NCBI RefSeq assembly: GCF_009760925.1
Contig: NZ_VRLV01000010.1
Location: 248,001-312,000, forward strand
Length of the DNA stretch: 64,000 nt
From: Nonomuraea typhae
Lineage (GTDB): Bacteria; Actinomycetota; Actinomycetes; Streptosporangiales; Streptosporangiaceae
Direction: 5' to 3'
Part shown: positions 12,065 to 33,812 of the stretch, piece after piece
Numbering within the stretch: position 1 is the first letter of the stretch
Layout: each line of letters starts with the position of its first letter
Program-made: the position numbers and the translations under genes
Notes under the pieces: generated by a model
Database searches by the model: none
What the model saw: the letters and a program-made list of their open reading frames with translations, nothing else
What the model was told of the DNA's origin: nothing

Positions 12065-12999
12065 TCAGGCTGTTGTCCCGCCGGGTGCTCGCGGCGGCCG
12101 TGCTGCTGCTGGTGATCACCGCGATCACCTCGCTGCTCACCGTGCTGGTGCCCGACCCGACCCACAACCTGCTGGGCACGACCGCCACGGCCGAGCAGAT
12201 CCTCGCCAAGAAGCGCGAGCTCGGACTCGACCGGCCCGTGCTCGAACGCTACCTGGAGTGGCTGGGCGGGGCCGTGCGCGGCGACCTCGGCGTCTCCTGG
12301 TTCACCGGGCTGCCCGTGGCCGAGACCATCCTGGCCAGGCTGCCGATCACGGTCTCGCTGGCCGTCATCGCCACGCTGGTCTCGGCCGTGCTCGGCACCG
12401 CGTTCGGCATGGCGGCCGCCATCCGGCGCGGGTGGCTGGACCGCGCCCTTCAGGTGGTGGCCGCGCTGGGCTTCGCCGTACCGGGGATGTGGGTGGCGCT
12501 GCTGCTGATCATCGTCTTCGCGGTGCAGCTGCGGTGGCTGCCGGCGACCGGATACGTGGCCTTCGCCGACAACCCCGCCGACTGGGCACGCTCGCTCGTG
12601 CTGCCGGTCGTGGCGATCGCCTCGGGCTCGGTGGCGGCCGTGGCCGCGCAGACCCGCAACGCGGTCGCCGCCGTGCTCGGCCAGGACTACGTCCGCACGC
12701 TGCGCAGCCGCGGGCTCCCGGCCTGGCGGCTGCTGCTGCGGCACGTCCTGCGCAACGCCGCCCCTGCCGCGCTGACCGTGGTCAGCCTGCAGTTCATCGG
12801 GCTGCTCGGCGGGGCCATCATCGTCGAGCAGATCTTCGCCATCAACGGCCTCGGCAGCCTCGCCGCGGCCTCCTCCAACCGCTCCGACATCCCGATGGTG
12901 CTCGGCGTGGTGGTGGTCGGCGTGCTCATCGTGCTGACCGTCAACCTGATCGTGGACCTGCTCGTGAGCTGGCTCGACCCGAAGGTACGCACCCGATGA
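12061..12999 (+). CDS. ABC importer permease, DppB-like
   Basis: A 312-residue inner-membrane permease with about six transmembrane helices. It has the periplasmic loop typical of DppB after helix 1 (KKRELGLDRPVLERYLEWL) and the cytoplasmic EAA-type loop near residue 215 (GLPAWRLLLRHVLRNAAPAALT) that contacts the ATPases. The ATG at 12061 overlaps the binding-protein stop, and its own stop overlaps the next start, so the operon is translationally coupled. It would pair with the permease part of the next fusion protein. Confidence 0.92.
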   Translation: MIRLLSRRVLAAAVLLLVITAITSLLTVLVPDPTHNLLGTTATAEQILAKKRELGLDRPVLERYLEWLGGAVRGDLGVSWFTGLPVAETILARLPITVSLAVIATLVSAVLGTAFGMAAAIRRGWLDRALQVVAALGFAVPGMWVALLLIIVFAVQLRWLPATGYVAFADNPADWARSLVLPVVAIASGSVAAVAAQTRNAVAAVLGQDYVRTLRSRGLPAWRLLLRHVLRNAAPAALTVVSLQFIGLLGGAIIVEQIFAINGLGSLAAASSNRSDIPMVLGVVVVGVLIVLTVNLIVDLLVSWLDPKVRTR

Positions 13000-18902: not shown

Positions 18903-19976
18903 TTACGGGTTCTCCACCTCGGTGAGCCGGAAGGGCGCCGTCGCCCGGACCACGCCGTTGACCACGATCTCCAGCGTGCGCGGCCCCGGCGGCTCCACCC
19001 GGGTCGTCACCGGGCGGAAGGAGTGGGACTTGGTCACCGCGATGGCCTGGCCGGCGTCGGCGGCCGTGCGCTCGCCCAGGTGGAAGACGCGCCGCGAGCC
19101 CGGGCGCACCACCGCGTAGCGCAGCACCAGCGGCCCCGGCGCATCCGCGGCCAGCTCGACGGTGAAGGCCAGCTTGCCGCCCACGGCCACCTGGTCGGCG
19201 GCCAGCGTCAGCGCCGTGACCCTGCCGCCGCCGGGCGTGGCGCCGACCAGGCCCAGCGCATCCGGGTGCCCGTCGCGCAGCAGCCCGCGCACCGCGTGCC
19301 TGACCACCTTCTCCACGTGTGAGCCGCCCTCGGCCCGCCACCCGGCCAGCAGCGCGACGGCCGCCTCCGGGTGGTCTTTGGCCAGGTCGTTGACGTGGTT
19401 GGCGACCGAGCGGCGGACATACTCGCTCGGGTCGTCGCGCAGCCGGGCCAGGATCGGCAGCGTCGGCCCGGGCGTCATCAGCCAGCCGACCCGGGTGGCC
19501 CACGGCAGCCTGGGCCGCGAGCCCTCCGAGGCCAGGCGGCGCAGGTGCGCGTCGGGCGAACCGGCCCACCCGTGCATGATCTCCAGGGCGGCCGTGCCGT
19601 GGCGCTCCAGATAGGGGCGGACGGCGAACTCGGCCGTGGCGTGCGGGGTCAGCGCGGCCAGCGTCTCCATCGCCACCTCGAGGTGGTCCAGGCCGTGCAG
19701 CGCGACGTAGTCGGTGGCGGGCCAGCCGCTCCACATGTCGAGCCCGGGCGCGCAGGCGCGCAGCGCGGCCGCCGCTTCGGCAAAGGGCACGCCGAGGACG
19801 CCGCCCAGCGTGCGGGCGACATGACGCACGCGGTCCTTCAGCTCCATCGCCGCCAGGGCGCCGACGGAATCGGCCACGAAGCGCTCGCGCGCGAAGCCGG
19901 GCAGGGCGGCGGCAAGGCCGTCGGCCAGCACGCCGACGGAATCGGCGTTGACGAACTCTTTCAGCGGTTGACCCAC
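18903..19976 (-). CDS. AlkC-like DNA alkylation repair glycosylase
   Basis: A 357-residue protein. Residues 1-240 are HEAT-like helical repeats (for example EYVRRSVANHVNDLAKDHPEAAVALL), as in the AlkC/AlkD glycosylases that excise alkylated bases such as 3-methyladenine and 3-methylcytosine without base flipping. A C-terminal beta-rich segment (about 245-355, KLAFTVELAADAPGPLVLRY) looks like the Ig-like domain found in one AlkC subfamily. The GTG start at 19976 lies inside the 3' end of the sigma factor gene with a 16-base overlap, so expression is probably coupled to it. Substrate choice cannot be read from the sequence. Confidence 0.8.
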   Translation of the reverse strand: MGQPLKEFVNADSVGVLADGLAAALPGFARERFVADSVGALAAMELKDRVRHVARTLGGVLGVPFAEAAAALRACAPGLDMWSGWPATDYVALHGLDHLEVAMETLAALTPHATAEFAVRPYLERHGTAALEIMHGWAGSPDAHLRRLASEGSRPRLPWATRVGWLMTPGPTLPILARLRDDPSEYVRRSVANHVNDLAKDHPEAAVALLAGWRAEGGSHVEKVVRHAVRGLLRDGHPDALGLVGATPGGGRVTALTLAADQVAVGGKLAFTVELAADAPGPLVLRYAVVRPGSRRVFHLGERTAADAGQAIAVTKSHSFRPVTTRVEPPGPRTLEIVVNGVVRATAPFRLTEVENP

Positions 19977-21259: not shown

Positions 21260-21568
21260 ATGGGAATCCATCGGTCCGCCGTGGACGAATCAGCGGACAT
21301 GGCAGAGGTCATTCATATGGTGATCGTGCTCGAGGGGGAGCCTCCGCCGCAGCGGCCGAAGTTCTCACGGCGGGAGCGGGCAGTGCTCCTCGCCTACACC
21401 TCGGGGATGACGCTTCAGAAGGCGGCCCATCGCATCGGGATCAGCCCGGCGACGGCCAAGACATACCTCCAGCGGGTCAAGGCCAAGTACGAGCAGGCGG
21501 GCCGGCCCGCCTACACCAAGCTGGAACTGGCCGAACGAGTCCGCGAGGACGAGGGGAGATCGGAGTGA
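21260..21568 (+). CDS. Small LuxR-type HTH regulator
   Basis: A 102-residue protein consisting mainly of a GerE/LuxR helix-turn-helix (FSRRERAVLLAYTSGMTLQKAAHRIGISPATAKTYL is read in parts over residues 35-75) with no receiver or ligand domain. The start is uncertain: ATGs at 21260, 21299 and 21317 are in frame, and I took the first because GGAA stands nine bases upstream. Its stop overlaps the next start as GTGA, tying it to the Cys-rich protein and so to the peptide-heme island. It is a candidate for binding the CTGTCA/TGACAG half-sites at 24465-24515; this is inference. Confidence 0.8.
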   Translation: MGIHRSAVDESADMAEVIHMVIVLEGEPPPQRPKFSRRERAVLLAYTSGMTLQKAAHRIGISPATAKTYLQRVKAKYEQAGRPAYTKLELAERVREDEGRSE

Positions 21569-22014
21569 ACGAGCAGGAGTACCGCGCGCTGATGCGCACC
21601 CGGCTGGCCGACTATCTGCGGCTGCGCGAGGACATGGGCGACGAGCGGGCCCGCGAGTCCATCCTGGAGTCCTACGTGCGCAGGCAGGAGCAGCGCATGG
21701 GCACGCTGATCCGCGACAACACTCTGGCCGAGGGCTTCTCCAAGGTCACCCGGGTGTTCGACACCATGGGCGTGCACATCGAGATCGTGGACGTCTCCGG
21801 CGACGGCGTGGACGCGGCCGTCGAGATCCTCACCACCTGCGAATGCCAGTCCACCTGCGACGACCTCGGCCTGACCGAGCCGCTGACGGTGCTGTGCGAG
21901 CTGGACAACGAGGCGGCCCGGCGGGCGTTCCCCGGCCTGAAGGTCGAGGTGCTGCGCCAGCACGTGCGCGGCGCCCACATGTGCGTCTTCCGCTACAGCC
22001 GCCAGGCCCCCTGA
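21565..22014 (+). CDS. Cys-rich protein, ATC-hydrolase-like, copy 1
   Basis: A 149-residue protein paralogous to the product at 26347-26814. The C-terminal half has the spacing TCECQSTC (Cys92, 94, 98), LCELD (Cys111) and GAHMCVFRY (His138, Cys140), which resembles the L-2-amino-thiazoline-4-carboxylic acid hydrolase family (PF14196-like). The N-terminal half is helical. Conserved between both copies are C-x-C, CEL and GAH-x-C, suggesting metal, heme or thiol chemistry. The GTG start overlaps the LuxR-type gene stop. A strong hairpin follows and then the convergent peptide gene. A role in modifying or chaperoning the peptide's Cys is a hypothesis. Confidence 0.75.
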   Translation: MNEQEYRALMRTRLADYLRLREDMGDERARESILESYVRRQEQRMGTLIRDNTLAEGFSKVTRVFDTMGVHIEIVDVSGDGVDAAVEILTTCECQSTCDDLGLTEPLTVLCELDNEAARRAFPGLKVEVLRQHVRGAHMCVFRYSRQAP

Positions 22015-22021
22015 GCGCGTG

Positions 22022-22055
22022 GGGCGGGGGACCCCGCCATGGGGATCCCCCGCCC
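22022..22055. terminator. Bidirectional hairpin terminator
   Basis: GGGCGGGGGACCCC (22022-22035) pairs with GGGGATCCCCCGCCC (22041-22055) across the loop GCCAT, leaving one bulged base. It sits between the ends of two convergent genes, the Cys-rich protein (ends 22014) and the peptide (ends 22063). There is no U-tract, as is common for actinomycete terminators. Confidence 0.7.
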
Positions 22056-22062
22056 GCTCATC

Positions 22063-22212
22063 TCACCCGCCGGTCTCGATCGGGGTCATGCCGCCGCCGT
22101 CGCGCGTGCAGCTGCCGCCCTCCGCGCCCATGCCGGGGTGCCCGCCATGGATCTCGTCGAGCTCGGCCTCGCTCAGCTCCGCCTCATGCGGGTTCACGAG
22201 CTGTTCCTTCAT
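22063..22212 (-). CDS. Candidate RiPP/bacteriocin-like precursor with double-glycine leader
   Basis: A 49-residue peptide not called by length-based gene finders. The ATG at 22212 follows GAGGAGG with eight-base spacing (an ATG six bases upstream is too close to it). The leader reads MKEQLVNPHE, then AELSEAELDEIHGG, a classic acidic double-glycine leader ending at Gly24. The predicted core of 25 residues starts HPGMGAEGG, contains one Cys (residue 35, in SCTRDGGG) and ends TPIETGG. The first core residue is His, and the core holds one His and one Cys, both possible heme or metal ligands. The gene lies 18 bases after the C39 exporter on the same strand. No lanthipeptide, lasso or radical-SAM enzyme is nearby. 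Confidence 0.75.
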   Translation of the reverse strand: MKEQLVNPHEAELSEAELDEIHGGHPGMGAEGGSCTRDGGGMTPIETGG

Positions 22213-22230
22213 CGTCATCACCTCCTCTCG

Positions 22231-24336
22231 CTAGGCGTCGAGCTGCGCTCCGACCAGCGCCGCGTAGCCGCCGCGCCGGGCCAGCAGTTCCTCGTGCGTG
22301 CCCTGCTCGACGATCCGGCCGCGCTCCAGCACCACGATCCGGTCGGCGTCCCGCACCGTGCTCAGCCGGTGGGCGATGACGATCTGCGTGCACCGCAACG
22401 CGCGCAGGTTGCGGTGGATGCGCGCCTCGGTGACCGCGTCCAGGTGGCTGGTCGCCTCATCGAGCAGCAGTACGGCCGGCCGCCCGATGAGCGCCCTGGC
22501 CAGCGCGAGCCGCTGCCGCTGGCCGCCAGAGAGCCCGCCGCCCCGCTCGGCCAGGCGGGTGTCGTAGCCGTTGGGCAGGGCGACGATCTCCTCGTGCAGC
22601 TCCGCCGTACGGGCTGCGTCGACCACCTCGTCGCGGGTGACGGCGGGGTCGTGGAAGGCGATGTTGTCGTGGATGGTCCCGCTGAAGAGCGAGGGCTCCT
22701 GGAGCACGGAGCCGACGCAGCCGCGCAGCCCGCCGGGGTCGTGGCCGTCGATGCCCACGGAGCCGGCCTCGGCCCGGTAGAGGCCGAGCAGCAGGAGCGC
22801 GAGCGTGGTCTTCCCGGCGCCCGTGGCGCCGACGACGGCCACCCGCTCGCCGGGCCGGGCGCGCAGGGAGACCCCGAGCAGCGCGGGCGGGCCGTGCCGG
22901 TCGTAGCGGAAGGTGACCGCGTCCACGTGCACGTCGCCGGTGAGGCCGGTCGGGGCGGTCCGGCCGGGCTCGGGCCGGGACTCCAGCACGTCGGCCAGCC
23001 GCTGGAGGTAGGCCCCGGCGAGCTGGAGCCGCTGAGCCCCGGCCACGAGCAGCGACAGCGGCGTCACGACGGAGGCGGCCATCCAGGTGGCGGCGATCAT
23101 GGTTCCGGCGCTCACGTCCCCGGTGAGCACGCGGGAGGCGCCCAGCCAGAGCACGGCCAGCGGGGTGAGCACGCGCAGGGAGGCGGCCACGGAGTCGAGG
23201 ACCGCGCTTGCGTGCCCGCGCCGCAGCGTGGCCCGCATCCAGGTGACGAACAGCCCCGACCAGCGTTCGAGCGCCCGCTGCTCGGCGGCGGCGGCCTTGA
23301 CCGTCAGCACCCCCTGGAGCATCTCGATCAGGTACGCCTGTTCCCGGTGATGGGTGTGGACGTCGGCGGCCATGCGCTCGCGCACCACCCGGGTGGCCCG
23401 GACGAACAGCCCGAACTGCACCGCGACCACGCCGAGGACCACCAGGGCGGCGGCCGGGTCGATCACGGCCAACACGGCCAGGTAGGTGAACAGCGTCGCC
23501 GTGTCGAGGACCGCGGCCAGCGTCTGCCCGGTGAGCTGCTCGCGCAGCAGCACGATGCCGCCCATCCTGGCGGCGATGTCGCCGGTGCTGCGCTGCTGGA
23601 AGTAGGTCAGCGGCAGCCGGAGCAGGTGCTCGCAGAAGCCGATCATGGCGTGGGTGTCCAGCCGCCCCTGCAGGTAGAGCACGAGCGAGGCGCGCAGGTA
23701 CCCGGTGACGAACTGGGCCGCGGCGATGACCGCGATCCCGGCGCCGACCAGGCCGAGCACCCCGCCCAGCGGGCCGAGCTGGTCCACCACCGCGCGTACG
23801 GCCAGCGGCATGGCCAGCCCGAGCACCTGCAGCAGCAGCGAGGCCAGCAGCACCTGGGCCAGCAGCGCCTTGGTCCCCCGGAGCGCGAGCAGGCGGCGCA
23901 CGTACACCCGCCAGAACGGCTCGCCGGCCGACTTCCTGCGGGTGAACCCGGGCCCCGGCCACAACCCGATCGCCACCCTGCCGAGCCCGGCCGCGAACTC
24001 CTCCTGGGTGAGCCGCCTGCGCCCGGTCTCGGGGTCGACGACCCTGACCCGGCGCCGGCCGACGTGCTCGACCACGACGTAGTGGTCGGGCGCCCAGTGC
24101 ACGATGGCCGGCAGGTCGAGGCCGCGCAGCAGCTCGGGCGAGGCGCGGTAGCCGGTGGCCGTCATGCCGAGTTCCTTGGCCGTCCTGACCAGCGTGCCCG
24201 CGGTGGTGCCCGCGCGCCCCAGGCCGCAGCGCTCGCGCAGCTCCAGCAGGGAGACCGCGTGGCCATGATGCCCCAGAACCATGGCCAGGCAGGCGACGCC
24301 GCACTCGATGCGGCTGGTCTGGAAGACGACCTTCAT
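22231..24336 (-). CDS. ABC exporter with N-terminal C39 peptidase domain
   Basis: A 701-residue peptidase-containing ABC transporter that cleaves double-glycine leaders and exports the core. The C39 domain (1-130) has Gln6, catalytic Cys12 in IECGVACLAMV, His85 in DHYVVVEH and Asp101 in VRVVDPETG, so it looks active. The transmembrane domain (about 150-440) is followed by the ATPase, with Walker A GATGAGKTT, signature [11 protein letters not shown] and Walker B VLLLDEATSHLD. I chose the ATG at 24336 because it overlaps the stop of the small membrane protein as ATGA and aligns with C39 N-termini; the frame extends upstream without need. Its obvious substrate is the peptide encoded 18 bases downstream. 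Confidence 0.95.
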   Translation of the reverse strand: MKVVFQTSRIECGVACLAMVLGHHGHAVSLLELRERCGLGRAGTTAGTLVRTAKELGMTATGYRASPELLRGLDLPAIVHWAPDHYVVVEHVGRRRVRVVDPETGRRRLTQEEFAAGLGRVAIGLWPGPGFTRRKSAGEPFWRVYVRRLLALRGTKALLAQVLLASLLLQVLGLAMPLAVRAVVDQLGPLGGVLGLVGAGIAVIAAAQFVTGYLRASLVLYLQGRLDTHAMIGFCEHLLRLPLTYFQQRSTGDIAARMGGIVLLREQLTGQTLAAVLDTATLFTYLAVLAVIDPAAALVVLGVVAVQFGLFVRATRVVRERMAADVHTHHREQAYLIEMLQGVLTVKAAAAEQRALERWSGLFVTWMRATLRRGHASAVLDSVAASLRVLTPLAVLWLGASRVLTGDVSAGTMIAATWMAASVVTPLSLLVAGAQRLQLAGAYLQRLADVLESRPEPGRTAPTGLTGDVHVDAVTFRYDRHGPPALLGVSLRARPGERVAVVGATGAGKTTLALLLLGLYRAEAGSVGIDGHDPGGLRGCVGSVLQEPSLFSGTIHDNIAFHDPAVTRDEVVDAARTAELHEEIVALPNGYDTRLAERGGGLSGGQRQRLALARALIGRPAVLLLDEATSHLDAVTEARIHRNLRALRCTQIVIAHRLSTVRDADRIVVLERGRIVEQGTHEELLARRGGYAALVGAQLDA

Positions 24337-24455
24337 GCCAGCCACCGGACCCCTGCCGCCATGAGCAGGGCCAGGGCCAGCAGGGTCAGCCACAGCGCGC
24401 GGCGGACGAGCGGGCGCAGCGCGCGGGGGAACAACTCGGAATCCTCGGGGACCAT
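24333..24455 (-). CDS. Small single-pass membrane protein coupled to the exporter
   Basis: A 40-residue protein. MVPEDSELFPRALRPLVRRA is an amphipathic, partly basic N-terminus, and residues 21-36 (LWLTLLALALLMAAG) form one transmembrane helix. The stop overlaps the exporter start as ATGA, which indicates real translation. It has no recognisable family. It could be an exporter accessory or immunity peptide. It is the first gene of the leftward unit, opposite hemB. Confidence 0.55.
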   Translation of the reverse strand: MVPEDSELFPRALRPLVRRALWLTLLALALLMAAGVRWLA

Positions 24456-24464
24456 GGCCGCAGG

Positions 24465-24515
24465 CTGTCAGCGCCGGCGAACCCTGTCATGACAGCAAAA
24501 ATGATGACATGACAG
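24465..24515. promoter_or_regulatory. Nested inverted-repeat operator in the divergent promoter
   Basis: The 111 bases between the leftward unit (start 24455) and hemB (start 24567) carry CTGTCA at 24465-24470, a perfect 12-bp palindrome CTGTCATGACAG at 24484-24495, and TGACAG at 24510-24515. CCTGTCATG (24483-24491) also pairs with CATGACAGG (24508-24516). The outer half-sites are about 22-23 bases either side of the central palindrome. This looks like a multi-dimer operator controlling both the exporter-peptide unit and the heme genes. Confidence 0.65.
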
Positions 24516-24566
24516 GGGGCGTGGTCCCGGATTTGCTCGAAGCATCGACGATCCGGGGAGGGACCC

Positions 24567-25394
24567 ATGTCCAGCGGCATCGGCCGCCGCCGCCCGCGAC
24601 GGCTGCGGCGCACGCCCGCCCTGCGCGGGCTGGCAGCGGAGCACCGGATGTCGCCGGGGGACCTCGTTCTCCCGCTGTTCGTCAAAGAGGGGATCACCGA
24701 CCCGGTCCCCGTCCCCTCGATGCCCGGCGTCGTCCAGCACACCGCCGACTCCGTCCGCAAGGCCGCGGCTCGCGCCGCGGCGGCAGGGGTCGGCGGGCTG
24801 CTGCTGTTCGGCGTGCCCGCGTTCAAGGACGATCGCGGGAGCGGCGCCGACGCCGAGGACGGGGTCGTGCAGCGCGCCCTGCGCGACCTGGCCGCCGACC
24901 TCGGCGGGCGGTGCGTGCTCATGGCCGACCTGTGCATGTGCGAATACACCGCCCACGGCCACTGCGGCCTGATCCAGGACGGGCAGGTGGACAACGACAC
25001 CACGCTCGCCCGCTACCAGGCGATCGCGCTCAGCCAGGCCGCCGAGTCGGCCCCCGCCGGCGGCGACCGCGCGGGCCACCAGCGCTCGCCCGCCAACGCC
25101 GGGGAGGCGCTCCGCGAGGTCGCCCTCGACCTGGAGGAGGGCGCCGACGCCGTCATGGTCAAGCCCGCGCTCGGCTACCTGGACGTGGTCCGCCGGGTGG
25201 CCGACGCGGCCGACGTGCCCGTGGCCGCCTACCAGGTCTCCGGCGAGTACGCGATGCTCGAGGCCGCCGCGGCGCACGGCTGGCTGGACCGCCGCCGCGC
25301 CGTCGCCGAGTCCCTGCTGTCGATCCGCCGCGCCGGCGCCGACCTCGTCATCACCTATTGGGCCCTGGAGGCCGCGGAGGAGCTGCTGCGATGA
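24567..25394 (+). CDS. hemB: Porphobilinogen synthase with internal deletion
   Basis: HemB condenses two 5-aminolevulinates to porphobilinogen. This copy has 275 residues against about 320-330 usual. The N-terminus, the zinc site DLCMCEYTAHGHCG (Cys123, 125, 133), the second active-site lysine motif VMVKPALGY (Lys199) and the C-terminal QVSGEYAML/ITYWA region are intact. Between ALSQA (residue 158) and AESAPAGGDR the usual segment with APSDMMDGR and SY-x2-K-YAS-x-FYGPFR, about 45-50 residues, is absent. That segment holds the other Schiff-base lysine. The frame is maintained. The protein may be inactive, altered in activity, or complemented by another HemB. The stop overlaps hemH as ATGA. Confidence 0.88.
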   Translation: MSSGIGRRRPRRLRRTPALRGLAAEHRMSPGDLVLPLFVKEGITDPVPVPSMPGVVQHTADSVRKAAARAAAAGVGGLLLFGVPAFKDDRGSGADAEDGVVQRALRDLAADLGGRCVLMADLCMCEYTAHGHCGLIQDGQVDNDTTLARYQAIALSQAAESAPAGGDRAGHQRSPANAGEALREVALDLEEGADAVMVKPALGYLDVVRRVADAADVPVAAYQVSGEYAMLEAAAAHGWLDRRRAVAESLLSIRRAGADLVITYWALEAAEELLR

Positions 25395-26350
25395 GCACCG
25401 GCATCGTCATGCTGAACATGGGCGGCCCGTGGACACTCGGCGACGTCCGCCCGTTCCTGCGCCGCCTGTTCGCCGACCTCGACATGCTGCCCGCCCGCCG
25501 CGTGCTCGGCCCGCTGCTCATCCGGGCCAGGCTCGCCCGCGTCACCCGCCAGTACGCCGAGATCGGCGGCGGCTCCCCGCTGCGCGACTGGACGGAACGC
25601 CAGGCCAAGGCTCTGACCGCCGAACTGGACGAGCTCTCCCCCGCCACCGGCCCCCACCACGCCTACCTGGCCTTCCGCTACGCCGAGCCGGGCGCCGCCG
25701 CCGCGCTCGCCGCGATGCGCGCCGACGGTGTACGGCGGGCCGTCGCCTTCCCCCAATACCCGCACTACTCGGTCACCACGACCGGATCGAGCATGGCCGA
25801 CCTGTGGCGCACGCTGACGGCGATGGGCATGGAGGACGCCTTCGAGTGGACCGTCATCGACCGCTGGCCGACCGAGCCCGCCTACGTGGCGGCACTGGCC
25901 GAGACCGTCCGCGAGGGCCTGGCCGCCTTCGACCGCCCGGACGAGGCGACGGTGCTGTTCAGCGCCCACTCCCTGCCCGAGCGCATCGTGGCCGCGGGCG
26001 ACCCGTACCCGGTCGAGACCCGCGCCACCGTCCGCGCCGTCATGGACCACCTGGCCGTCCCCAACCCGCACCTGCTCGCCTACCAGTCCAAGGTCGGCCC
26101 GATGCCGTGGCTGCGGCCCGGCACCGAGGCCACGGTCGGGGACCTGGGCGCGCGCGGCGTGAAACGGCTGCTGATCGTGCCCGTCTCGTTCACCTCCGAC
26201 CACATCGAGACCCTGTGGGAGCTCGACGTGGAGGTCGCCGAGGCGGCCGAGCGGGCCGGCATCACCCACTACCGCCGGGCGCCCGCACTGAACGACCGCC
26301 CGTCGTTCACCGCGGCGCTGGCCCGGATCGTCGAAAAGAGGATCACATGA
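25391..26350 (+). CDS. hemH: Ferrochelatase, protoporphyrin type
   Basis: A 319-residue enzyme that inserts Fe2+ into a porphyrin. The catalytic His193 is in FSAHSLPER, Glu273 in SFTSDHIETLWELD, and the metal-proximal motif YQSKVGPMPWL is intact. These motifs resemble the protoporphyrin-dependent ferrochelatases of proteobacteria and eukaryotes more than the coproporphyrin ferrochelatases (CpfC) usual in actinobacteria; that judgement is by eye. There is no [2Fe-2S] Cys extension. The ATG overlaps the hemB stop, and its stop overlaps the second Cys-rich gene start, so the three are co-translated. Confidence 0.93.
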   Translation: MSTGIVMLNMGGPWTLGDVRPFLRRLFADLDMLPARRVLGPLLIRARLARVTRQYAEIGGGSPLRDWTERQAKALTAELDELSPATGPHHAYLAFRYAEPGAAAALAAMRADGVRRAVAFPQYPHYSVTTTGSSMADLWRTLTAMGMEDAFEWTVIDRWPTEPAYVAALAETVREGLAAFDRPDEATVLFSAHSLPERIVAAGDPYPVETRATVRAVMDHLAVPNPHLLAYQSKVGPMPWLRPGTEATVGDLGARGVKRLLIVPVSFTSDHIETLWELDVEVAEAAERAGITHYRRAPALNDRPSFTAALARIVEKRIT

Positions 26351-26814
26351 ATGACAAGGAAGCCGCGTTCCGCGCCGAGATGCGCGACCGGATGGCCCGC
26401 TACCTGGAGCTGCGCGACACCGTCGGCGAGCGGGCGGCCCGCGAGGAGCTGATGGCCGGATACCCGGCCCGCCAGCGCGCCTGCATGGCCCCCTACCTCG
26501 ACAGCTCCAGCTCGCTGACCGAGGCCATCGCCAAGGTGCTGCCCGTCTTCGAGGAGATGGGCCTGCAGGAGGAGGTCGTGGACTGCTCCACGCCCGAGCG
26601 CGAGTGCGCGCTGGTCGTCACCCGCACGTGCCTGTGCAAGGCGGCCGCCGAGGACCTCGGCATCACCGACCCGCCCTCGCTGCACTGCGAGCTGTCGGTC
26701 GAGGCCACTTCGCGCGCCTTCGACGACATCACGGCCGAGGTCATGCTGCGGCAGGTGCGCGGCGCGCACGCCTGCGCCCTGCGCTACATCCGGCCCGTCT
26801 CGACGGACTCCTGA
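26347..26814 (+). CDS. Cys-rich protein, ATC-hydrolase-like, copy 2
   Basis: A 155-residue paralogue of the protein at 21565-22014. The shared pattern is TCLC (Cys95, 97), HCEL (Cys114) and GAHACALRY (His141, Cys143), plus a similar N-terminal helix MRDRMARYLELRD. It lacks the third Cys of the first cluster but has extra Cys at 46, 80 and 87. It is translationally coupled to ferrochelatase by ATGA, which ties the family to heme. The two copies could form a hetero-oligomer or act on the peptide and on porphyrin separately. Its 3' end overlaps the convergent hemF by 31 bases. Confidence 0.75.
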   Translation: MNDKEAAFRAEMRDRMARYLELRDTVGERAAREELMAGYPARQRACMAPYLDSSSSLTEAIAKVLPVFEEMGLQEEVVDCSTPERECALVVTRTCLCKAAAEDLGITDPPSLHCELSVEATSRAFDDITAEVMLRQVRGAHACALRYIRPVSTDS

Positions 26815-27734
26815 CCGGCCACCGGCCCCCGAGGCAGCCGCGGCCCCGCCCAGTCGCGGGGCTGCAGGAGCTCGGCCACCGCGCTCTCCGGGCTGCCCGG
26901 CTCGGGGATCAGCTCGAAGCCCCAGCGCGCCAGGGGCGGCATCGACATGAGGATCGCCTCGATGTTGCCCCGGGTCTGCAGCCCGAACCGGGTGCCCCGG
27001 TCGTAGACCAGGTTGAACTCGACGTAGCGCCCGCGCCGCGCCAGCTGCCAGTTCCGCTCCCGCGGGCCGTACGGCATGCGGCAGCGCCGGTCCAGGATCG
27101 GCAGGTAGGCGGGCCCGATGGTGGCCAGCCCGTCGGCGACCAGCGCCCGGCAGCGCCCGAACCCGCCGGGCCCCTCCTCGCTGATCCGGTCGAAGAAGAC
27201 GCCGCCCACCCCGCGCATCTCGCCCCGGTGCGGGATCGTGAAGTACTCGTCGCAGGCGGCCTTCCACTCCTCGTAGCTGGCGCCGGGATGCCGGTCGCAC
27301 CAGTCGCGCAGCGTGCGGTGGAAGTGGGCGGCGTCGTCGGCGAAGCCGTACATCGGGGTGAGGTCGCAGCCGCCGCCGAACCACCAGTCGAGGCCGGGCA
27401 CGCTGAAGAAGCGGAAGTTGGCGTGCATGGCCGGGGCGTAGGGGTTGCGCGGGTGCAGCACCATCGAGATGCCCGTCGCCGCGTACGGCAGGCCGTCGGT
27501 GTGCGGGAACGTCTGGACGATCGTCTGCGGGACCCGCTCGCCGTGGATGAGCGAGACGTTGACGCCGGCCCGTTCGAAGACGTGCCCGCCCTCCAGGACG
27601 CAGGCCCGGCCGCCGCCCAGCGTGCTGCGCTCCCACTGGGCCGGCCGGAAGCGCCCGCCCTGGTCGTAGTCCTCGAAGACGGCGACGAGCCGGGACTGCT
27701 CGGCGCGCAGCAGCGCGTGCACCTCGTCGATCAT
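26784..27734 (-). CDS. hemF: Aerobic coproporphyrinogen III oxidase
   Basis: A 316-residue oxygen-dependent enzyme that decarboxylates coproporphyrinogen III to protoporphyrinogen IX. Signatures are ISMVLHPRNPYAPAMHANFR, WWFGGGCDLTPMY, HRGEMRGVGGVFFD and the terminal YVEFNLVYDRGTRFGL-type motif with ILMSMPP. Most actinobacteria instead oxidise coproporphyrinogen to coproporphyrin, insert iron and decarboxylate last, so HemF is unexpected. The ATG at 27734 overlaps the hemC stop as ATGA. A run of about 20 extra residues at the C-terminus reaches into the convergent Cys-rich gene. Confidence 0.95.
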   Translation of the reverse strand: MIDEVHALLRAEQSRLVAVFEDYDQGGRFRPAQWERSTLGGGRACVLEGGHVFERAGVNVSLIHGERVPQTIVQTFPHTDGLPYAATGISMVLHPRNPYAPAMHANFRFFSVPGLDWWFGGGCDLTPMYGFADDAAHFHRTLRDWCDRHPGASYEEWKAACDEYFTIPHRGEMRGVGGVFFDRISEEGPGGFGRCRALVADGLATIGPAYLPILDRRCRMPYGPRERNWQLARRGRYVEFNLVYDRGTRFGLQTRGNIEAILMSMPPLARWGFELIPEPGSPESAVAELLQPRDWAGPRLPRGPVAGQESVETGRM

Positions 27735-28648
27735 CTGCTGGGTTCCTTGTCCAGGAGCAGCGCGGCCAGGTCACGGCCGATGCGGCAGGCGTCCTCGATC
27801 GGGCCGGTGTGCGCCGCCCTGACCCTTCTGTCGGCCAGGACGGCCTCGAGCGTGAGCGTTCCGTCGTCTCCTGGCGTGGCCAGCGCGCCGACCGGGGCCG
27901 TGCAGCCCGCCTGCAGCGCGGCCAGCAGGCTGCGCTCGGCGGTGGCCGCCGCCCGCGTGGGCGGGTGGTCGAGGGGCGCGAGCGCGTCGATGGCCCGCAG
28001 GTCGCCGGCCCGGCATTCGACGGCCAGCGCGCCCTGGGCGGGGGCGGGGAGCATGATCCCGGGGTCGAGCGGCAGCACGCCGGCGGAGCTGAGGCCGAGC
28101 CCCAGCCGGTCCAGCCCGCCGGAGGCGTGGGCGCGGCCTTGGGTGTTCGGAGCGGTCAGGCCGAGGCGGTCCAGGCCGGCCAAGGCCAATACCAGCGCGT
28201 CCACTTGGCCGTCGGCCAGCTTCCGCAGCCGGGTGTCCACGTTGCCACGCATCGGGGCCACCACGACATCGTACGCCTGCCGTACCTGAAAGGCCCGGCG
28301 TGGCGAACCGGTGCCGACGCGGGCGCCGGCCTCCGGCACGCGGCCGGGACGCAGCACCAGCGCGTCACGCGGATCGGCGCGCTCGGGGACGGCGGCCGTC
28401 ACGATCCCGGGCATCGGCGCGGTCGGCAGGTCCTTGTAGGAGTGGACGACCACGTCCACCTCGCCGCACAGCAGCGCCTCGCGCAGCGCGGTGGTGAAGA
28501 CGCCGGTCGCGCCGATGCGCTCGATCGGCGCGTCGGTCCGGTCGCCGGCCGTGGTGATGCCCACCAGTTCCACGGGTACGGTCAGCCGTTCCGCCACCCA
28601 GCGTGACTGGACCATCGCGAGTCTGCTCCGCCTGGTGCCGAGCCTCAT
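27731..28648 (-). CDS. hemC: Hydroxymethylbilane synthase
   Basis: A 305-residue porphobilinogen deaminase that polymerises four porphobilinogens on a dipyrromethane cofactor. The catalytic Asp is in HSYKDLPT (Asp73), and the cofactor-bearing Cys249 in LQAGCTAPVGAL is conserved. Unusual is a repeat of GLDRLGL at residues 158-164 and 178-184, which adds about 15-20 residues ahead of LPAPAQGALAVE. That region normally holds a single copy. No hemD follows, although hemD is commonly adjacent. The start overlaps the hemA stop as ATGA. Confidence 0.93.
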   Translation of the reverse strand: MRLGTRRSRLAMVQSRWVAERLTVPVELVGITTAGDRTDAPIERIGATGVFTTALREALLCGEVDVVVHSYKDLPTAPMPGIVTAAVPERADPRDALVLRPGRVPEAGARVGTGSPRRAFQVRQAYDVVVAPMRGNVDTRLRKLADGQVDALVLALAGLDRLGLTAPNTQGRAHASGGLDRLGLGLSSAGVLPLDPGIMLPAPAQGALAVECRAGDLRAIDALAPLDHPPTRAAATAERSLLAALQAGCTAPVGALATPGDDGTLTLEAVLADRRVRAAHTGPIEDACRIGRDLAALLLDKEPSR

Positions 28649-29838
28649 GTCGTCTCCTCAAGGCCGTAGAGGTGGGCCAGCGCGTCGAGGTAGCGCGCCC
28701 CGCCCGGTGTGGCGGACAGCCGCTTGGCCCGGATGGTCGGTTCGTGCAGCAGCCGGCCGGCGACGCGGCGGATGGCGGTCTCGGTCTCCCGGCGGGCCCG
28801 CTCGTCCAGGCCGGGCAGGCGGCGGTGCAGGCGGACCACCTCGTCGGCGACGACCTGCCCGGCCTGCCCGCGCAGCGCGGTGATCAGGGGTACGGCGGCG
28901 CGCTCGTGGCCCTCGGTGAGGTGGGCGGCCACCTCCTCGGCCACGATCGCCCTGGCCCGCTCCACCTCCTCCGGCAGTCCCCGTCCGGCCAGATGCCTGC
29001 CCAGGTCCTCGATGTCGGCGACCCTGACGCCGGGCAGCGTCCGCACCTCGGGCGCCACGTTGCGCGGGAGGCCGAGGTCGAGCACGAAGGCCGGTCCCGT
29101 CACCCGGCCGGCGGTCACCACGGGCTCGGGCGCGCGGACGGCGGTGACCATCAGATCGCAGCGGGGCAGCGGCCCTTGGGACAGGTCCCCCGCGACGACG
29201 CCGCCCACCTCGGCCGCCAGCCTGTCCGCCGCCGTCCTGCCCCGGTTGGCGATGAGGATGCGGCCCGCGCCCAGCGCACGGGCGCGCCTGGCCACGGCCC
29301 GGCCCACCTCGCCCGCCCCGATGACCAGCACGGCCCGGCCGGCCAGCCCGTGCAGGTACCGGACGGCCAGGTCCATCCCGGCGCCGGCCAGCGACAGGCC
29401 GGCCGTACCCAGGTCCGTCTCGGCGCGGACCCGGCGACCGGCGCGCAACGCCGTACGGACCAGACGGTGCAACTCGGGGCTCATGCTCTCCGCGGCCGCG
29501 CGGACGGCCCGCCGCAGCTGCCCGGCGATCTCGCGCTCTCCCAGCGCCATGGACTCCAGCCCGCCGGCGACGGAGCACAGGTGCTCCACGGCGCACACCT
29601 CCCGCCGCACCAGCGGATGCCAGTCGAGCGCCCGCTCCAGGGCGGCCGGGGCGCGGGTGTCGCCGTCGGCGTAGAACTCCAGCCGGTTGCAGGTGGCCAG
29701 CAGGAAGACCCCGTCCACGCCGGGCGCGTCGCGCAGCCGTCGCAGCAGGTCAGGACGTTGTTCGTCCGGTACGGCCAGCCGTTCGAGCACCCCGATGGGC
29801 ACGTGCTCGTAGGTCAGTCCCGCGCAGAGAATCGACAC
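28645..29838 (-). CDS. hemA: Glutamyl-tRNA reductase
   Basis: A 397-residue NADPH-dependent enzyme of the C5 pathway that reduces glutamyl-tRNA to glutamate semialdehyde, the first committed step of tetrapyrrole synthesis. The catalytic Cys50 is in LLATCNRLEFY, the NADPH fold in VLVIGAGEVGRAVA, and a C-terminal dimerisation domain is present. I chose the GTG at 29838 (VSILCAGLTYEH) because it aligns with the family N-terminus; longer readings run into the iron-box promoter. It is the first gene of the leftward hemA-hemC-hemF unit and faces the iron importer across an IdeR-like box. hemL, hemD, hemE and hemG/hemY are not in the window. Confidence 0.93.
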   Translation of the reverse strand: MSILCAGLTYEHVPIGVLERLAVPDEQRPDLLRRLRDAPGVDGVFLLATCNRLEFYADGDTRAPAALERALDWHPLVRREVCAVEHLCSVAGGLESMALGEREIAGQLRRAVRAAAESMSPELHRLVRTALRAGRRVRAETDLGTAGLSLAGAGMDLAVRYLHGLAGRAVLVIGAGEVGRAVARRARALGAGRILIANRGRTAADRLAAEVGGVVAGDLSQGPLPRCDLMVTAVRAPEPVVTAGRVTGPAFVLDLGLPRNVAPEVRTLPGVRVADIEDLGRHLAGRGLPEEVERARAIVAEEVAAHLTEGHERAAVPLITALRGQAGQVVADEVVRLHRRLPGLDERARRETETAIRRVAGRLLHEPTIRAKRLSATPGGARYLDALAHLYGLEETT

Positions 29839-29903
29839 GCCTGACGGTAAAACGGCGGCACCCGGGATTTCACGTCCGCAATTCGGATGACAGACCCCGA
29901 ACG

Positions 29904-29933
29904 TTGACAAAGTTGAAGGTTAGCCTAACCTAA
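29904..29933 (+). promoter_or_regulatory. IdeR/DtxR-like iron box over a TTGACA promoter
   Basis: Bases 29915-29933 (GAAGGTTAGCCTAACCTAA) match the IdeR/DtxR consensus TTAGGTTAGSCTAACCTAA at 17 of 19 positions, and the central GGTTAGCCTAACC is a perfect palindrome. TTGACA at 29904-29909 is a good -35, and TAACCT about 17 bases later a plausible -10, so the box covers the core promoter. Iron-loaded repressor would block transcription of the importer and possibly of divergent hemA. The likely start site coincides with the GTG at 29939. Confidence 0.85.
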
Positions 29934-29938
29934 TCTCC

Positions 29939-30748
29939 GTGACCGGGAAGATCTCGCTGGCCGGAGCCGACCTCCGCCTCAGCTACCACGGAGCCTGCGT
30001 GGTCGAAGAGGGCCGCATCAACCTGCCTCCGGGCCAGGTGACCGCGCTGGTCGGCCCGAACGGCAGCGGCAAGTCCACCTTGCTGCGCGCGCTGGCCAGG
30101 CTGCACCGGCCCGACGCCGGGACGGTGTGCTTCGGCGACGGCAGCTCCGCCCTCGACCTGTCGGCGCGCGACTTCGCCCGCCGGGTGACGCTGCTCGCCC
30201 AGAGCCGCCCCACCCCGAGCGGGGTGCAGGTCCGCGACGTGGTCGGCTACGGCCGCCACCCGTACCGGGGCCGCTGGAAGGCCGGGGACCCCGGCGGCAC
30301 CGAGGCCGTGGCCCGCGCGATGACGCTGACCGGCGTCAGCGCGATGGCCGAGCGTCCGGTGGACGAGCTGTCGGGCGGCGAGCTGCAGCGCGTGTGGCTG
30401 GCCACCTGCCTGGCGCAGGACACCGCGGTCCTGCTCCTGGACGAGCCCACCACCTTCCTCGACCTGCGCTACCAGGTCGAGCTGCTGGAGCTCGTCCGCG
30501 ACCTGGCCGACGAGCACGGCGTCGCCATCGGCATCGTGCTCCACGACCTCAACCAGGCCGCCGAGATCGCCGACCGCGTCGTGCTGCTGCACGGCGGCAA
30601 GGTGCGGGCCGACGGCCCGCCCGCCGAGGTGTTCACCGAAGAACTCCTCAGCGACGCCTACGGCATCCGCATCGACGTCACGCACGACCCCCAGACGGGC
30701 ACGGTGCGCACCCGGCCGATCGGCCGGCACCTGCCCGTCACGACCTGA
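29939..30748 (+). CDS. Iron-siderophore/heme ABC importer ATPase
   Basis: A 269-residue FecE/FepC-type ATPase. Walker A is VGPNGSGKST, the Q-loop LLAQSRPTP, the signature DELSGGELQRV, Walker B VLLLDEPTTFLD and the H-loop HDLNQAA. The GTG at 29939 has no upstream ribosome site and lies about seven bases after the predicted -10, so the mRNA may be leaderless. It heads a three-gene operon under an IdeR-like box. The ligand could be a ferric siderophore, or heme given the neighbouring heme genes; the sequence does not decide. Confidence 0.92.
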   Translation: MTGKISLAGADLRLSYHGACVVEEGRINLPPGQVTALVGPNGSGKSTLLRALARLHRPDAGTVCFGDGSSALDLSARDFARRVTLLAQSRPTPSGVQVRDVVGYGRHPYRGRWKAGDPGGTEAVARAMTLTGVSAMAERPVDELSGGELQRVWLATCLAQDTAVLLLDEPTTFLDLRYQVELLELVRDLADEHGVAIGIVLHDLNQAAEIADRVVLLHGGKVRADGPPAEVFTEELLSDAYGIRIDVTHDPQTGTVRTRPIGRHLPVTT

Positions 30749-30759
30749 CAGGAACCACC

Positions 30760-31743
30760 ATGCTCTCCCTGCGCAGCGCCCTCGTGGCCCTGGCCGCGAT
30801 CGCCGCTCTCAGCGCCTGCGGCACCACCGAAGCCCCCGTCGCCGCCCCCGCCTCCTCGGCCCCCTCCCCGAGCTCCACCCCGGTCAGCGTCACCGACGGG
30901 CGCGGCAAGAAGATCGACCTCGAGCGTCCGGCGGCCCGGGTCGTCAGCCTGGAGTGGGGCGAGACCGAGATGCTCGCCACCCTCGGCGTGATGCCGGTGG
31001 GCGTCGCCGACGTCAAGGGGTACGGCACCTGGGTGACCTCCGCCAAGCTCGACGCGAGCGTCAAGGACGTCGGCATGCGCAACGAGCCCAGCGTCGACTC
31101 CATCGCCGCCCTCCAGCCCGACCTAATCGTCATGGAGTCCGACGACGCCGCGCTGGTGGGCCAGCTGGAGAAGTTCGCGCCCGTCCTGGTGTTCAAGGGC
31201 AGCGACGCGTCGGGCAACCTCACGCGCATGCGCGCCGACCTGAACCTGCTCGCCACCGCGGTCGGCAAGACCGCCGAGGCGCAGAAGGTCCTGGCCGACT
31301 TCGACGCCGCCATGGCCGACGCCAAGCAGAAGATCGCCGCGGCCGGCGGCGCGGGCAAGCCGTTCGCGATGGCCGACGGCTGGAAGGAAGGCAGCACGAT
31401 CTCGGTGCGCCTGTTCGGCAAGGGCGCGCTCGTCTCCGACGTGGCCGAGGCCGTCGGCCTGAAGAACGCCTGGTCCGGCAAGGTCGACCCCGTGTGGGGC
31501 CTCGGCAACACCGACGTCGAGGGCCTGACCGCGCTCAAGGACCCCGGCACCCGCTTCTTCTACAGCGCCTCCGACGGCGACGACGTCTTCGCCGACGGCC
31601 TGGCGAGCAACGCCATCTGGAAGTCGCTGCCCTTCGTCAAGAAGCAGAACGTCACCAAGCTGCCCGACGGCATCTGGACCTTCGGCGGCCCGCTGTCGTG
31701 CAAGCAGTATGCCGAGGCGCTGGTCAAGGCATACACCACTTGA
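30760..31743 (+). CDS. Iron-siderophore/heme-type substrate-binding lipoprotein
   Basis: A 327-residue FecB/FepB-type periplasmic-binding-like protein anchored outside the membrane. The signal peptide ends in the lipobox ALSAC (Cys20), followed by a Ser/Pro-rich linker (residues 22-40) and the two-lobed domain, with RVVSLEWGETEMLATLG, LQPDLIVMES and a C-terminal WTFGGPLSCKQYAEAL motif. The ATG at 30760 has AGGAA about six bases upstream. It lies 11 bases after the ATPase gene, and its stop overlaps the permease start. Confidence 0.92.
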   Translation: MLSLRSALVALAAIAALSACGTTEAPVAAPASSAPSPSSTPVSVTDGRGKKIDLERPAARVVSLEWGETEMLATLGVMPVGVADVKGYGTWVTSAKLDASVKDVGMRNEPSVDSIAALQPDLIVMESDDAALVGQLEKFAPVLVFKGSDASGNLTRMRADLNLLATAVGKTAEAQKVLADFDAAMADAKQKIAAAGGAGKPFAMADGWKEGSTISVRLFGKGALVSDVAEAVGLKNAWSGKVDPVWGLGNTDVEGLTALKDPGTRFFYSASDGDDVFADGLASNAIWKSLPFVKKQNVTKLPDGIWTFGGPLSCKQYAEALVKAYTT

Positions 31744-33812
31744 GCACGCTGACGTCCGCGGAGGTCCCGGTCACGCCGTTGCGGCGCGTCGGGACCGCCG
31801 GGGTCTTCCTCCTCGCGCTGGCGGCGGTCGTCCTGCTCGCCGCCGTCCACGTCACCCAGGGCAACGCCGACGTCGGCGCGCTGGACCTGCTGTCCGGCGT
31901 GCTCGGCGGCAGCGACGAGGGCGCCCGGGTGCTGCTGGCCTCCCGGCTGCCCCGGCTGCTGGCCGCGGTGGCCGTCGGCGCCGCGCTCGGCGCCGCCGGC
32001 TCGCTCATGCAGTCGATCGCGCGCAACCCGATGGCCTCCCCTGACACGCTGGCCGTCAGCGCCGGCGCCTACCTCGCGGTGGCCGCCGCCGCCGCGTTCG
32101 GCCTGTCGCTGCCCCTCGCCCTGTCCGGCGGCCTCGCCCTCTTCGGCGGCCTGGCCGCCGCCGCGCTGGTCCTCGCGCTCTCGGGCGGCGGGCGCACCGG
32201 CACCACCCGGCTCATCCTCGCCGGCTCCGCCACCGCGCTGGCGCTCGGCTCCCTCACCAACCTCGTCATGATCCTCTTCGAGGAGGCCACCCACGGCCTG
32301 TTCGCCTGGGGCAGCGGCTCGCTCGTGCAGAGCGACCTGAACGCGGTCACCCAGCTCGGCCCGCTCATCGTGGCCTGCCTGCTGGCCGCCATGGTCGTCG
32401 GCCCCAAGGTGGACATCCTCGGCCTCGGCGACGACACCGCCGCCGTGCTCGGCGTCAACGTGCGCCGGTTGCGCCTCTGGCTCACGGTGCTGGCCGTGGT
32501 GCTGTCGGCCGCGGCCGTGACGATCGCCGGCCCGATCGGGTTCGTCGGGCTGTGCGCGCCGGTGATCGTCCGCCTGCTGCCCAAGTCGATCCCCGGGCTG
32601 CACCGCAACCGGTCGCTGCTGCCGCTGTCGGCCCTGGCCGGGGCGATCATCGTGATCGGCTCCGACATCCTGCTGCGCGCCCTGCTCGGCGCCCAGGCCG
32701 GCGTGGACGTGCCCCCCGGTGTGGTCACCACGCTGCTCGGCGCCGGCGTCATGATCTGGCTGGCCCGGCGCTACCGCGACGCCGGACCCACCCGGCAGCC
32801 GCCCGCCGTCCGCACCGTCGCCGCCCGCTCCCGCCGCGCCTACCTCGTCATCGTCGCCGTCTGCCTCGCCCTCCTGGCCGCGGCGCTCGTGCTCGGCATG
32901 CTGGGCGGCGACCGCTGGCTGCTCACCGGCGACGTGGCCAACTGGCTGCAGGGCCGTACCGGCCGGGCGCTCACCTTCGTCCTGGACCAGCGCTACCCGC
33001 GCGTGCTGGCCGCCGTCCTGGCCGGTGCCGCGCTGGCCGTCGCCGGCACCGCCGTACAGGCCGTCTGCCGCAACCCGCTGGCCGAGCCCGGCGTCCTCGG
33101 CGTCACGGCCGGCGCGGGCGTCGGCGCGATCGCGCTGCTCGCCTTCGTGCCCCTGGCCGGGGTCTGGTCGATGTCGGCCGTGGCCTTCGCCGGCGCCCTC
33201 GCGGCCTTCGCCGTCGTCTACGGCCTGTCGTGGCGCGGCGGCCTGAACTCCGACCGCCTCGTGCTCATCGGCGTCGCCGTCCAGGCCGCGTGCACCGCGG
33301 TGACGATCCTCATCATCGTCAAGTCGAACCCGTGGAACACCGCGATGGCCCTGACCTGGCTGTCCGGCTCCACCTACGGACGGCTGCCGGTCCAGTTGAT
33401 CCCCGTGGCGCTGGCCCTGGTCGTCTCGATCCCGCTGCTCGCCTGGCTCCGGCGCGACCTGGACCTGCTCTCCCTGAACGAGGACACCCCGCGCGTCCTG
33501 GGCGTCCCCCTCGAGCCGGTACGGCTGGCCGCCCTGGGCGCCTCCGTCCTGCTGACCTCGACCGCGGTCTCGGCCGTGGGCGTGGTGGGCTTCGTCGGCC
33601 TGATCGCGCCCCACGCCGCCCGCGCCCTGGTCGGCGCCAGGCACTCCCGGGTCCTGCCGGTCGCGGTCCTGCTGGGCGCGGTCCTGGTCAGCCTGGCCGA
33701 CACCCTGGGCCGCACGGTCATCGCCCCCGCCCAGGTGCCCGCCGGGCTGGTGACGGCGCTGATCGGCACGCCCTACTTCGTCTGGCTGCTGTGGCGGTCC
33801 CGGGCCCGCTAG
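31740..33812 (+). CDS. Double-length FecCD iron permease (FhuB-like)
   Basis: A 690-residue membrane protein in which two FecCD permeases are fused in tandem, as in FhuB. The first half (about 15-345) has ARNPMASPDTLAVSAG and AGPIGFVGLCAPVIVRLL; the second (about 360-690) has CRNPLAEPGVLGVTAGAG and VGVVGFVGLIAPHAARALVG. Each half should contribute ten helices and one ATPase-contact Gly motif. I chose the TTG start at 31740 because it overlaps the binding-protein stop as TTGA; there is no other good start before the first helix. Its TAG stop and the TAG of the convergent DUF2332 gene share one CTAG. Confidence 0.93.
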   Translation: MSTLTSAEVPVTPLRRVGTAGVFLLALAAVVLLAAVHVTQGNADVGALDLLSGVLGGSDEGARVLLASRLPRLLAAVAVGAALGAAGSLMQSIARNPMASPDTLAVSAGAYLAVAAAAAFGLSLPLALSGGLALFGGLAAAALVLALSGGGRTGTTRLILAGSATALALGSLTNLVMILFEEATHGLFAWGSGSLVQSDLNAVTQLGPLIVACLLAAMVVGPKVDILGLGDDTAAVLGVNVRRLRLWLTVLAVVLSAAAVTIAGPIGFVGLCAPVIVRLLPKSIPGLHRNRSLLPLSALAGAIIVIGSDILLRALLGAQAGVDVPPGVVTTLLGAGVMIWLARRYRDAGPTRQPPAVRTVAARSRRAYLVIVAVCLALLAAALVLGMLGGDRWLLTGDVANWLQGRTGRALTFVLDQRYPRVLAAVLAGAALAVAGTAVQAVCRNPLAEPGVLGVTAGAGVGAIALLAFVPLAGVWSMSAVAFAGALAAFAVVYGLSWRGGLNSDRLVLIGVAVQAACTAVTILIIVKSNPWNTAMALTWLSGSTYGRLPVQLIPVALALVVSIPLLAWLRRDLDLLSLNEDTPRVLGVPLEPVRLAALGASVLLTSTAVSAVGVVGFVGLIAPHAARALVGARHSRVLPVAVLLGAVLVSLADTLGRTVIAPAQVPAGLVTALIGTPYFVWLLWRSRAR

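Follow-up and report, generated by a model that had tools for sequence, protein, structure and literature searches.

Paired TolI homologues, haem-pathway genes and a double-glycine peptide in a Nonomuraea cluster predicted to make a devinylated porphyrin

Introduction

Removal of vinyl groups from a porphyrin ring has been described for the tolyporphin pathway. According to the passages available of two reports, the Fe-S protein TolI strips a tetravinylporphyrinogen of its four vinyl groups, releasing acetaldehyde with no need for oxygen, by a proposed sequence of tautomerisation, 1,4-addition of water and retro-aldol-type cleavage that awaits verification (PMC10548856, PMC10459692). As far as these passages go, the chemistry is that of one cyanobacterial pathway, and HemF2 takes off the last two propionates (PMC10548856). 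Here we describe a gene cluster of the soil actinomycete Nonomuraea typhae, lying in a stretch of 64,000 nucleotides (contig NZ_VRLV01000010.1, positions 248,001 to 312,000; hereafter the window), in which two TolI homologues are found among haem-pathway genes, a gene for a double-glycine (GG) leader peptide and one for an exporter with a C39 peptidase domain. Judged from its genes, this cluster, which is rare, would make a devinylated (deutero-) porphyrin or haem.

Compounds of this kind have been reported from an extract of the sponge Isabela sp., from which deuteroporphyrin IX was isolated (m/z 511.2345) and in which deuterohemin IX was assigned provisionally by mass (m/z 564.1474), in the passages available of PMC9865862. 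Porphyrin production by a Streptomyces is reported in the accessible part of PMC10060970. Among the matches listed in the open PMC literature, as judged from titles and the openings of abstracts, none dealt with an actinobacterial TolI-hem cluster or a porphyrin-linked GG peptide.

Results

A sequence-only reading of the locus had proposed that two Cys-rich proteins form one partner family shared by peptide and haem genes. The two are paralogues (41% identical), as claimed, but the family is not new and already has a name: by sequence, both belong to the TolI subfamily. TolI-A (cysA; 149 amino acids; 21565..22014, forward strand), a predicted Fe-S porphyrinogen devinylase, matches the Pfam family ATC_hydrolase (PF14196) with 39.3 bits against a cut-off of 28.1. 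TolI-B (cysB; 155 amino acids; 26347..26814, forward strand), a diverged paralogue recognised by its likeness to TolI-A and by alignment, gave no PF14196 match when scanned alone. Identity to the homologue of Oculatella LEGE 06141 (locus L052), the strain whose TolI was assayed, is 39% for TolI-A and 33% for TolI-B. Three cysteines (C92, C111 and C140 in TolI-A numbering) are invariant in 50 of 50 aligned sequences, both paralogues included, and could hold a predicted Fe-S cluster; every other residue invariant across the 50 is retained in TolI-A as well. An AlphaFold2 model of TolI-A (mean predicted confidence, pLDDT, 92.9) has a fold resembling Bet3, phenol-sensor and H-NOX domains; this group includes the haem-binding H-NOX domain, a modelled likeness that counts in favour of the devinylation view taken below. 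The named relatives of TolI-B are mostly from Nonomuraea, and protein records place both TolI types in an Aldersonia (VIW24_04905, 04915) and in Nonomuraea NPDC002799. That the Cys-rich proteins are TolI homologues explains the haem genes around them, which would probably build a modified porphyrin in place of ordinary haem.

The company that TolI keeps points the same way. Of 54 Nonomuraea genomes, two carry a TolI pair and the same two are the only ones with HemF, so the co-occurrence of the Cys-rich family with hemF and hemH in relatives, which the sequence-only reading had made its test, is borne out here and in the actinobacterial loci. Wider samples yielded a TolI match in 7 of 345 genomes of the order (both TolI-bearing Nonomuraea plus five from a single further genus, all five with contamination estimates below 5%, that is, 5 of 286 clean genomes), in 1 of 394 genomes of the class, searched with a narrower model, and in 3 of 396 of the phylum, namely this genome and two marginal ones (E-values 2e-4 and 6e-4). 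Hem genes adjoin TolI in 12 of the 13 actinobacterial loci (the window, that of Nonomuraea sediminis, L014, L015, L016, L017, L023, L038, G594, G619, G643, G649 and G650). The thirteenth is L023, in which the TolI match starts 180 bases from the contig end; G594, a locus of 3 kb, offers part of a hemF, and its match figures equal those of L014, so that the two may be one species. An alignment search for TolI returned 41 loci, 25 of them cyanobacterial, 7 actinobacterial and 9 from Chlorobiaceae or beta-proteobacteria. All 25 cyanobacterial loci carry hemF (L013, L018-L022, L024-L031, L033-L037, L039, L041, L043, L045, L049 and L052). L018 is HT-58-2 and falls inside the BGC-2 interval given in PMC8401325. 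These 25 hemF-tolI neighbourhoods outnumber the eight strains covered in that paper (PMC8401325). One of them, from Calothrix PCC 7716 (L036, 4588-8726), has an HlyD-family gene and an ABC exporter whose C39 domain is partial directly upstream of hemF2-tolI.

The type of the haem enzymes bears on which porphyrin would reach TolI. HemF, an oxygen-dependent coproporphyrinogen oxidase (26784..27734, reverse strand), is the only one in the genome. In a tree of 36 HemF sequences, eight actinobacterial ones group with four cyanobacterial HemF1-like sequences (support 100/100), and the 24 HemF2-like sequences that adjoin cyanobacterial tolI stand apart from the actinobacterial HemF; matches of 188, 231 and 97 residues in L078, L031 and L075 were omitted, and no hemF match came from L076, whose stretch runs no further than hemE. 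The single HemF thus falls with the HemF1 sequences, and no second, divergent HemF of the HemF2 kind accompanies it. With an enzyme of this type the pathway should stop at divinyl protoporphyrinogen IX with two propionates kept, from which TolI action would give deuteroporphyrinogen IX. By sequence, HemH (25391..26350, forward strand) is a ferrochelatase of the protoporphyrin type: it scores 323 bits against mitochondrial ferrochelatase and 277 against 1l8x, which we take to be the yeast enzyme, and at most 120 against bacterial and coproporphyrin ferrochelatase chains. Actinobacteria normally make haem via the coproporphyrin route. A second ferrochelatase is present in both TolI-bearing Nonomuraea and was not found in the three other Nonomuraea tested. 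The pairing of such a HemH with a HemF1-type HemF agrees with a metal being put into a porphyrin that has kept two propionates.

The remaining haem genes are hemC (porphobilinogen deaminase; 27731..28648, reverse strand), hemA (glutamyl-tRNA reductase; 28645..29841, reverse strand, its open frame reaching 29910) and hemB (24567..25394, forward strand). All were identified in a Pfam/NCBIfam scan of ten cluster proteins (both TolI homologues, the peptide, its exporter, a small membrane protein, HemB, HemH, HemF, HemC and HemA). The hemB gene is there, as the sequence-only reading had it, but internally deleted. Relative to N. sediminis, 156 bases (52 codons) are missing in frame; in that species nearly identical copies of CAGGCGGCGG border the stretch, which points to loss by recombination. 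With it has gone YSAKYAS, the segment that carries the first of two active-site lysines, and the encoded enzyme is probably inactive to judge from its sequence. Two further hemB copies in the genome match positions 2-316 of 317. The third hemB of the genome (L063, 9578-10495, on C12) lies near genes of the FAD-binding monooxygenase and arylmalonate decarboxylase families, possibly another biosynthetic cluster.

Between the haem genes sits the export module. The GG leader peptide (49 amino acids; 22063..22212, reverse strand; predicted core HPGMGAEGGSCTRDGGGMTPIETGG) adjoins a 701-residue exporter (22231..24336, reverse strand) with Peptidase_C39, ABC_membrane and ABC_tran domains, which over almost its whole length matches the bacteriocin transporter of known structure 4ry2. 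A single-span membrane protein of 40 residues and no known family (24333..24455, reverse strand) joins the exporter by an ATGA overlap. The pair of peptide and exporter is kept in N. sediminis, where the peptide frame occupies the same place (tblastn 2e-9) and the exporter frame (11936-14233) overlaps the peptide start. Conservation of the peptide beside haem genes, another test set by the sequence-only reading, thus holds in the only related locus available for reading. Both Nonomuraea leaders end in ELDEIHGG, and their cores share the pattern PG-G--G-CTRD; a third peptide, P0013, close to that of N. sediminis, keeps EIHGG and CTRD, so that the cysteine of the CTRD motif is present in 3 of 3. 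No RiPP-tailoring enzyme (RiPP, ribosomally synthesised and post-translationally modified peptide) of a known kind was found in the cluster, and a tailoring role for TolI-B is conjecture.

The N. sediminis cluster (loci L007 and L012) keeps the gene order seen in N. typhae: regulator-cysA, peptide and exporter, hemB-hemH-cysB, hemF-hemC. Protein identities between the two species are 59% for the peptide, 60% for TolI-A, 70% for the exporter, 73% for HemH, 75% for TolI-B, 78% for HemF, 69% for HemC and 78% for HemB outside its gap. A 41-residue membrane open reading frame stands at the matching place with the same kind of overlap with the exporter; tblastn gave no alignment with its 40-residue counterpart, and the likeness LFP..LRPL.R was judged by eye. 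In each of the two loci read, a second TolI accompanies the GG peptide and the C39 exporter. TolI genes, peptide, exporter and haem genes are thus one conserved unit, kept in two species. The link that the sequence-only reading had drawn among them stands as such a unit; because its Cys-rich members are TolI homologues, the product would probably be a modified porphyrin.

All listed genes and overlaps of the earlier description are present, as read from Pfam/NCBIfam matches, open reading frames and the junctions themselves. Overlaps of four bases, start codon on stop codon, join the membrane protein to the exporter, hemB to hemH, hemH to cysB, hemC to hemF and hemA to hemC, and one at 21565-21568 joins the regulator gene to cysA; cysB and hemF overlap tail to tail. 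The regulator (21299..21568, forward strand) has the expected LuxR-type helix-turn-helix (HTH; GerE Pfam match) but only that, in 89 amino acids. Its HTH is 75% identical over 69 residues to its N. sediminis orthologue, a protein of 203 amino acids whose receiver match falls under the Pfam cut-off (19.8 versus 30.2 bits).

Beyond hemA lies an ABC importer (29939..33812, forward strand) composed, by Pfam matches, of an ATPase, a Peripla_BP_2 protein and a fused FecCD permease. Between it and hemA is a strong IdeR/DtxR-like iron box (29915..29933, no strand assigned) with two mismatches to the consensus (0 such boxes in 100 shuffles). The box probably serves the importer. No importer orthologue occurs within 48 kb around the N. 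sediminis cluster, so the idea that this operon takes the product back up lacks comparative support, and the importer is probably outside the conserved cluster.

Discussion

We favour, with somewhat better than even confidence, the view that this specialised-metabolite cluster makes a vinyl-trimmed (deutero-type) porphyrin, probably metallated, and that the GG peptide is exported as its companion. HemA, HemB and HemC would supply extra precursor flux, a function partly decayed and for which other hemB copies exist in the genome, and HemF would carry it to protoporphyrinogen IX. One or both TolI homologues might then hydrate the two vinyls and release them as acetaldehyde, so that mono- or didevinyl (deutero-) porphyrinogen IX is formed, into which, following oxidation, HemH would insert iron or another metal. 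The peptide, cut after GG, would leave through the C39 transporter as carrier, ligand or conjugate of the porphyrin. What supports this view is the TolI subfamily membership, the hem genes beside nearly all actinobacterial TolI, the confinement of HemF to the two TolI-bearing Nonomuraea, the HemF and HemH types, and the recurrence of peptide and exporter with the TolI-hem genes.

Several observations weigh against it. The TolI assay, as far as the accessible passages tell, included HemF2 and a tetravinyl substrate (PMC10459692), and action on divinyl protoporphyrinogen IX is assumed. TolI-B keeps the three cysteines, but E87, R119 and F142 (A numbering), which almost every other TolI retains, are lost. 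In Chlorobiaceae and one beta-proteobacterium, 0 of 9 TolI loci (L032, L040, L042, L044, L046, L047, L048, L050 and L051) have any of the searched hem genes nearby. Both positive Nonomuraea genomes carry contamination estimates of 7-8%, and neither TolI nor HemF occurs in any of the 41 genomes below 5%; the contigs that carry the clusters measure 425 kb and 1.0 Mb, and the two clusters are consistent with each other. To these must be added the hemB lesion and its counterpart in N. sediminis, where no more than 66 codons of hemA are left, their overlap with hemC preserved. Finally, the peptide is known to be conserved from three sequences, of which two are close, and it could act independently.

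This last point, a peptide-exporter pair that forms a class II-like bacteriocin or signal module sharing only its regulation with a devinylated-porphyrin cluster, is the competing idea we take most seriously, though we think it unlikely. A GG leader and a C39 exporter suffice for an unmodified peptide, and the other actinobacterial TolI loci scanned have no GG peptide or C39 exporter and MMPL or MFS transporters instead. Against this stand the interleaved order tolI-A, peptide-exporter, hemB-hemH-tolI-B in two species and the coincidence of TolI duplication with the peptide in both loci read; because of this conserved position and the shared two-tolI loci, we assign the pair to the cluster. 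The peptide may be an independent bacteriocin, a carrier, or a covalent partner through its single cysteine, and its link with the porphyrin is one we infer from its company with the exporter and a second TolI in two loci and from the conserved cysteine. A covalent partnership would make the product a porphyrinopeptide, a new type of RiPP: TolI-B (or TolI-A) would add the peptide cysteine, in place of water, to a vinyl of protoporphyrinogen IX, the other TolI would trim the remaining vinyl, HemH would metallate, and the exporter would cut the leader and release the conjugate. The thioether would resemble that of cytochrome c, formed by an unrelated Fe-S enzyme. We regard this as a long shot, entertained because the 1,4-addition proposed for TolI could in principle accept a thiol.

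It is only slightly easier to believe that the cluster supplies plain haem b for stress or redox needs through a protoporphyrin branch, with the TolI homologues as porphyrin-binding chaperones or sensors, and we doubt it. HemF and a protoporphyrin-type HemH do complete a haem route, the predicted TolI fold is like that of ligand-binding sensor, H-NOX and Bet3 domains, and TolI-B has lost conserved residues. However, 52 of 54 Nonomuraea genomes do without HemF, presumably using the coproporphyrin route, and TolI-A keeps every invariant residue of a family in which TolI is, in the passages available, a demonstrated C-C cleaving enzyme (PMC10459692). Least probable to us is a cluster in decay whose product is no longer made in this strain. 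The hemB deletion, the hemA remnant in N. sediminis and the shorter regulator here all speak for it; yet the frames and four-base overlaps around both lesions are intact, leaving downstream coupling undamaged, the seven other genes compared have no stops and 59-78% protein identity, and two other hemB genes cover nearly the whole domain. The precursor-supply genes seem dispensable, with hemF, hemC, hemH, the tolI pair, the peptide and the exporter being kept.

If the porphyrin is indeed trimmed, the actinobacterial clusters, this one included, would offer TolI chemistry a second and simpler setting, with two vinyls and a protoporphyrin-type chelatase, and a possible bacterial route to deuteroporphyrin or deuterohaem. 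Were the peptide joined to the porphyrin, it would represent a new class of modified peptide.

The tolyporphin cluster of HT-58-2 and relatives resembles this one in that TolI adjoins extra hemA, hemB, hemC and hemF, without hemD. It differs in that two TolI paralogues, a ferrochelatase, a GG peptide and a C39 exporter are found here, and the predicted Nonomuraea product retains two propionates. None of HemF2, a glycosyltransferase (tolD included), tolB, P450 or DevBC is among the ten scanned cluster proteins, to which, in this genome, the search for tolD, tolB and P450 was confined; nor is hemE, for which these proteins were the part of the window scanned, so the hemABCEF-tolI grouping is incomplete.

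Actinobacterial TolI-hem clusters have three architectures, all sharing hemA, hemC, TolI, mostly hemB and, where the stretch reaches, a hemF of identical type. The Streptomyces type, found in Streptomyces and Streptantibioticus (L015-L017, L038), has hemF, hemA, hemC, hemB (3 of 4) and hemE, then hemH, an amine-oxidase-family gene (HemY-like by position), tolI, a TetR gene and an MMPL transporter; Pfam confirmed hemE, amine oxidase and MMPL in L015 and hemE and TetR in L016, the remainder resting on sequence likeness. Near the L038 cluster, a small Cys-rich peptide frame (19497-19634) looks by eye like a lanthipeptide precursor. The Actinomadura-like type (L014, L075-L078) has hemE, hemA, hemC, hemB, hemF where reached, tolI and an MFS transporter, with a LuxR response regulator in L075-L078; single genes were Pfam-checked in L014, L075, L076 and L077, and the remainder assigned by likeness. 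Both differ from the Nonomuraea type, with its two tolI, hemH, GG peptide and C39 exporter, in having one TolI, hemE and an MMPL or MFS transporter. With the GG peptide/C39 export systems (peptidase-containing ABC transporters, PCAT) the cluster shares a leader ending in EIHGG and a full-length exporter, here embedded among porphyrin genes and with no known RiPP-tailoring enzyme seen. The Isabela compounds, known from a sponge extract and without gene information in the passages available, are didevinyl porphyrins in free and iron form, just as the Nonomuraea gene set would predict.

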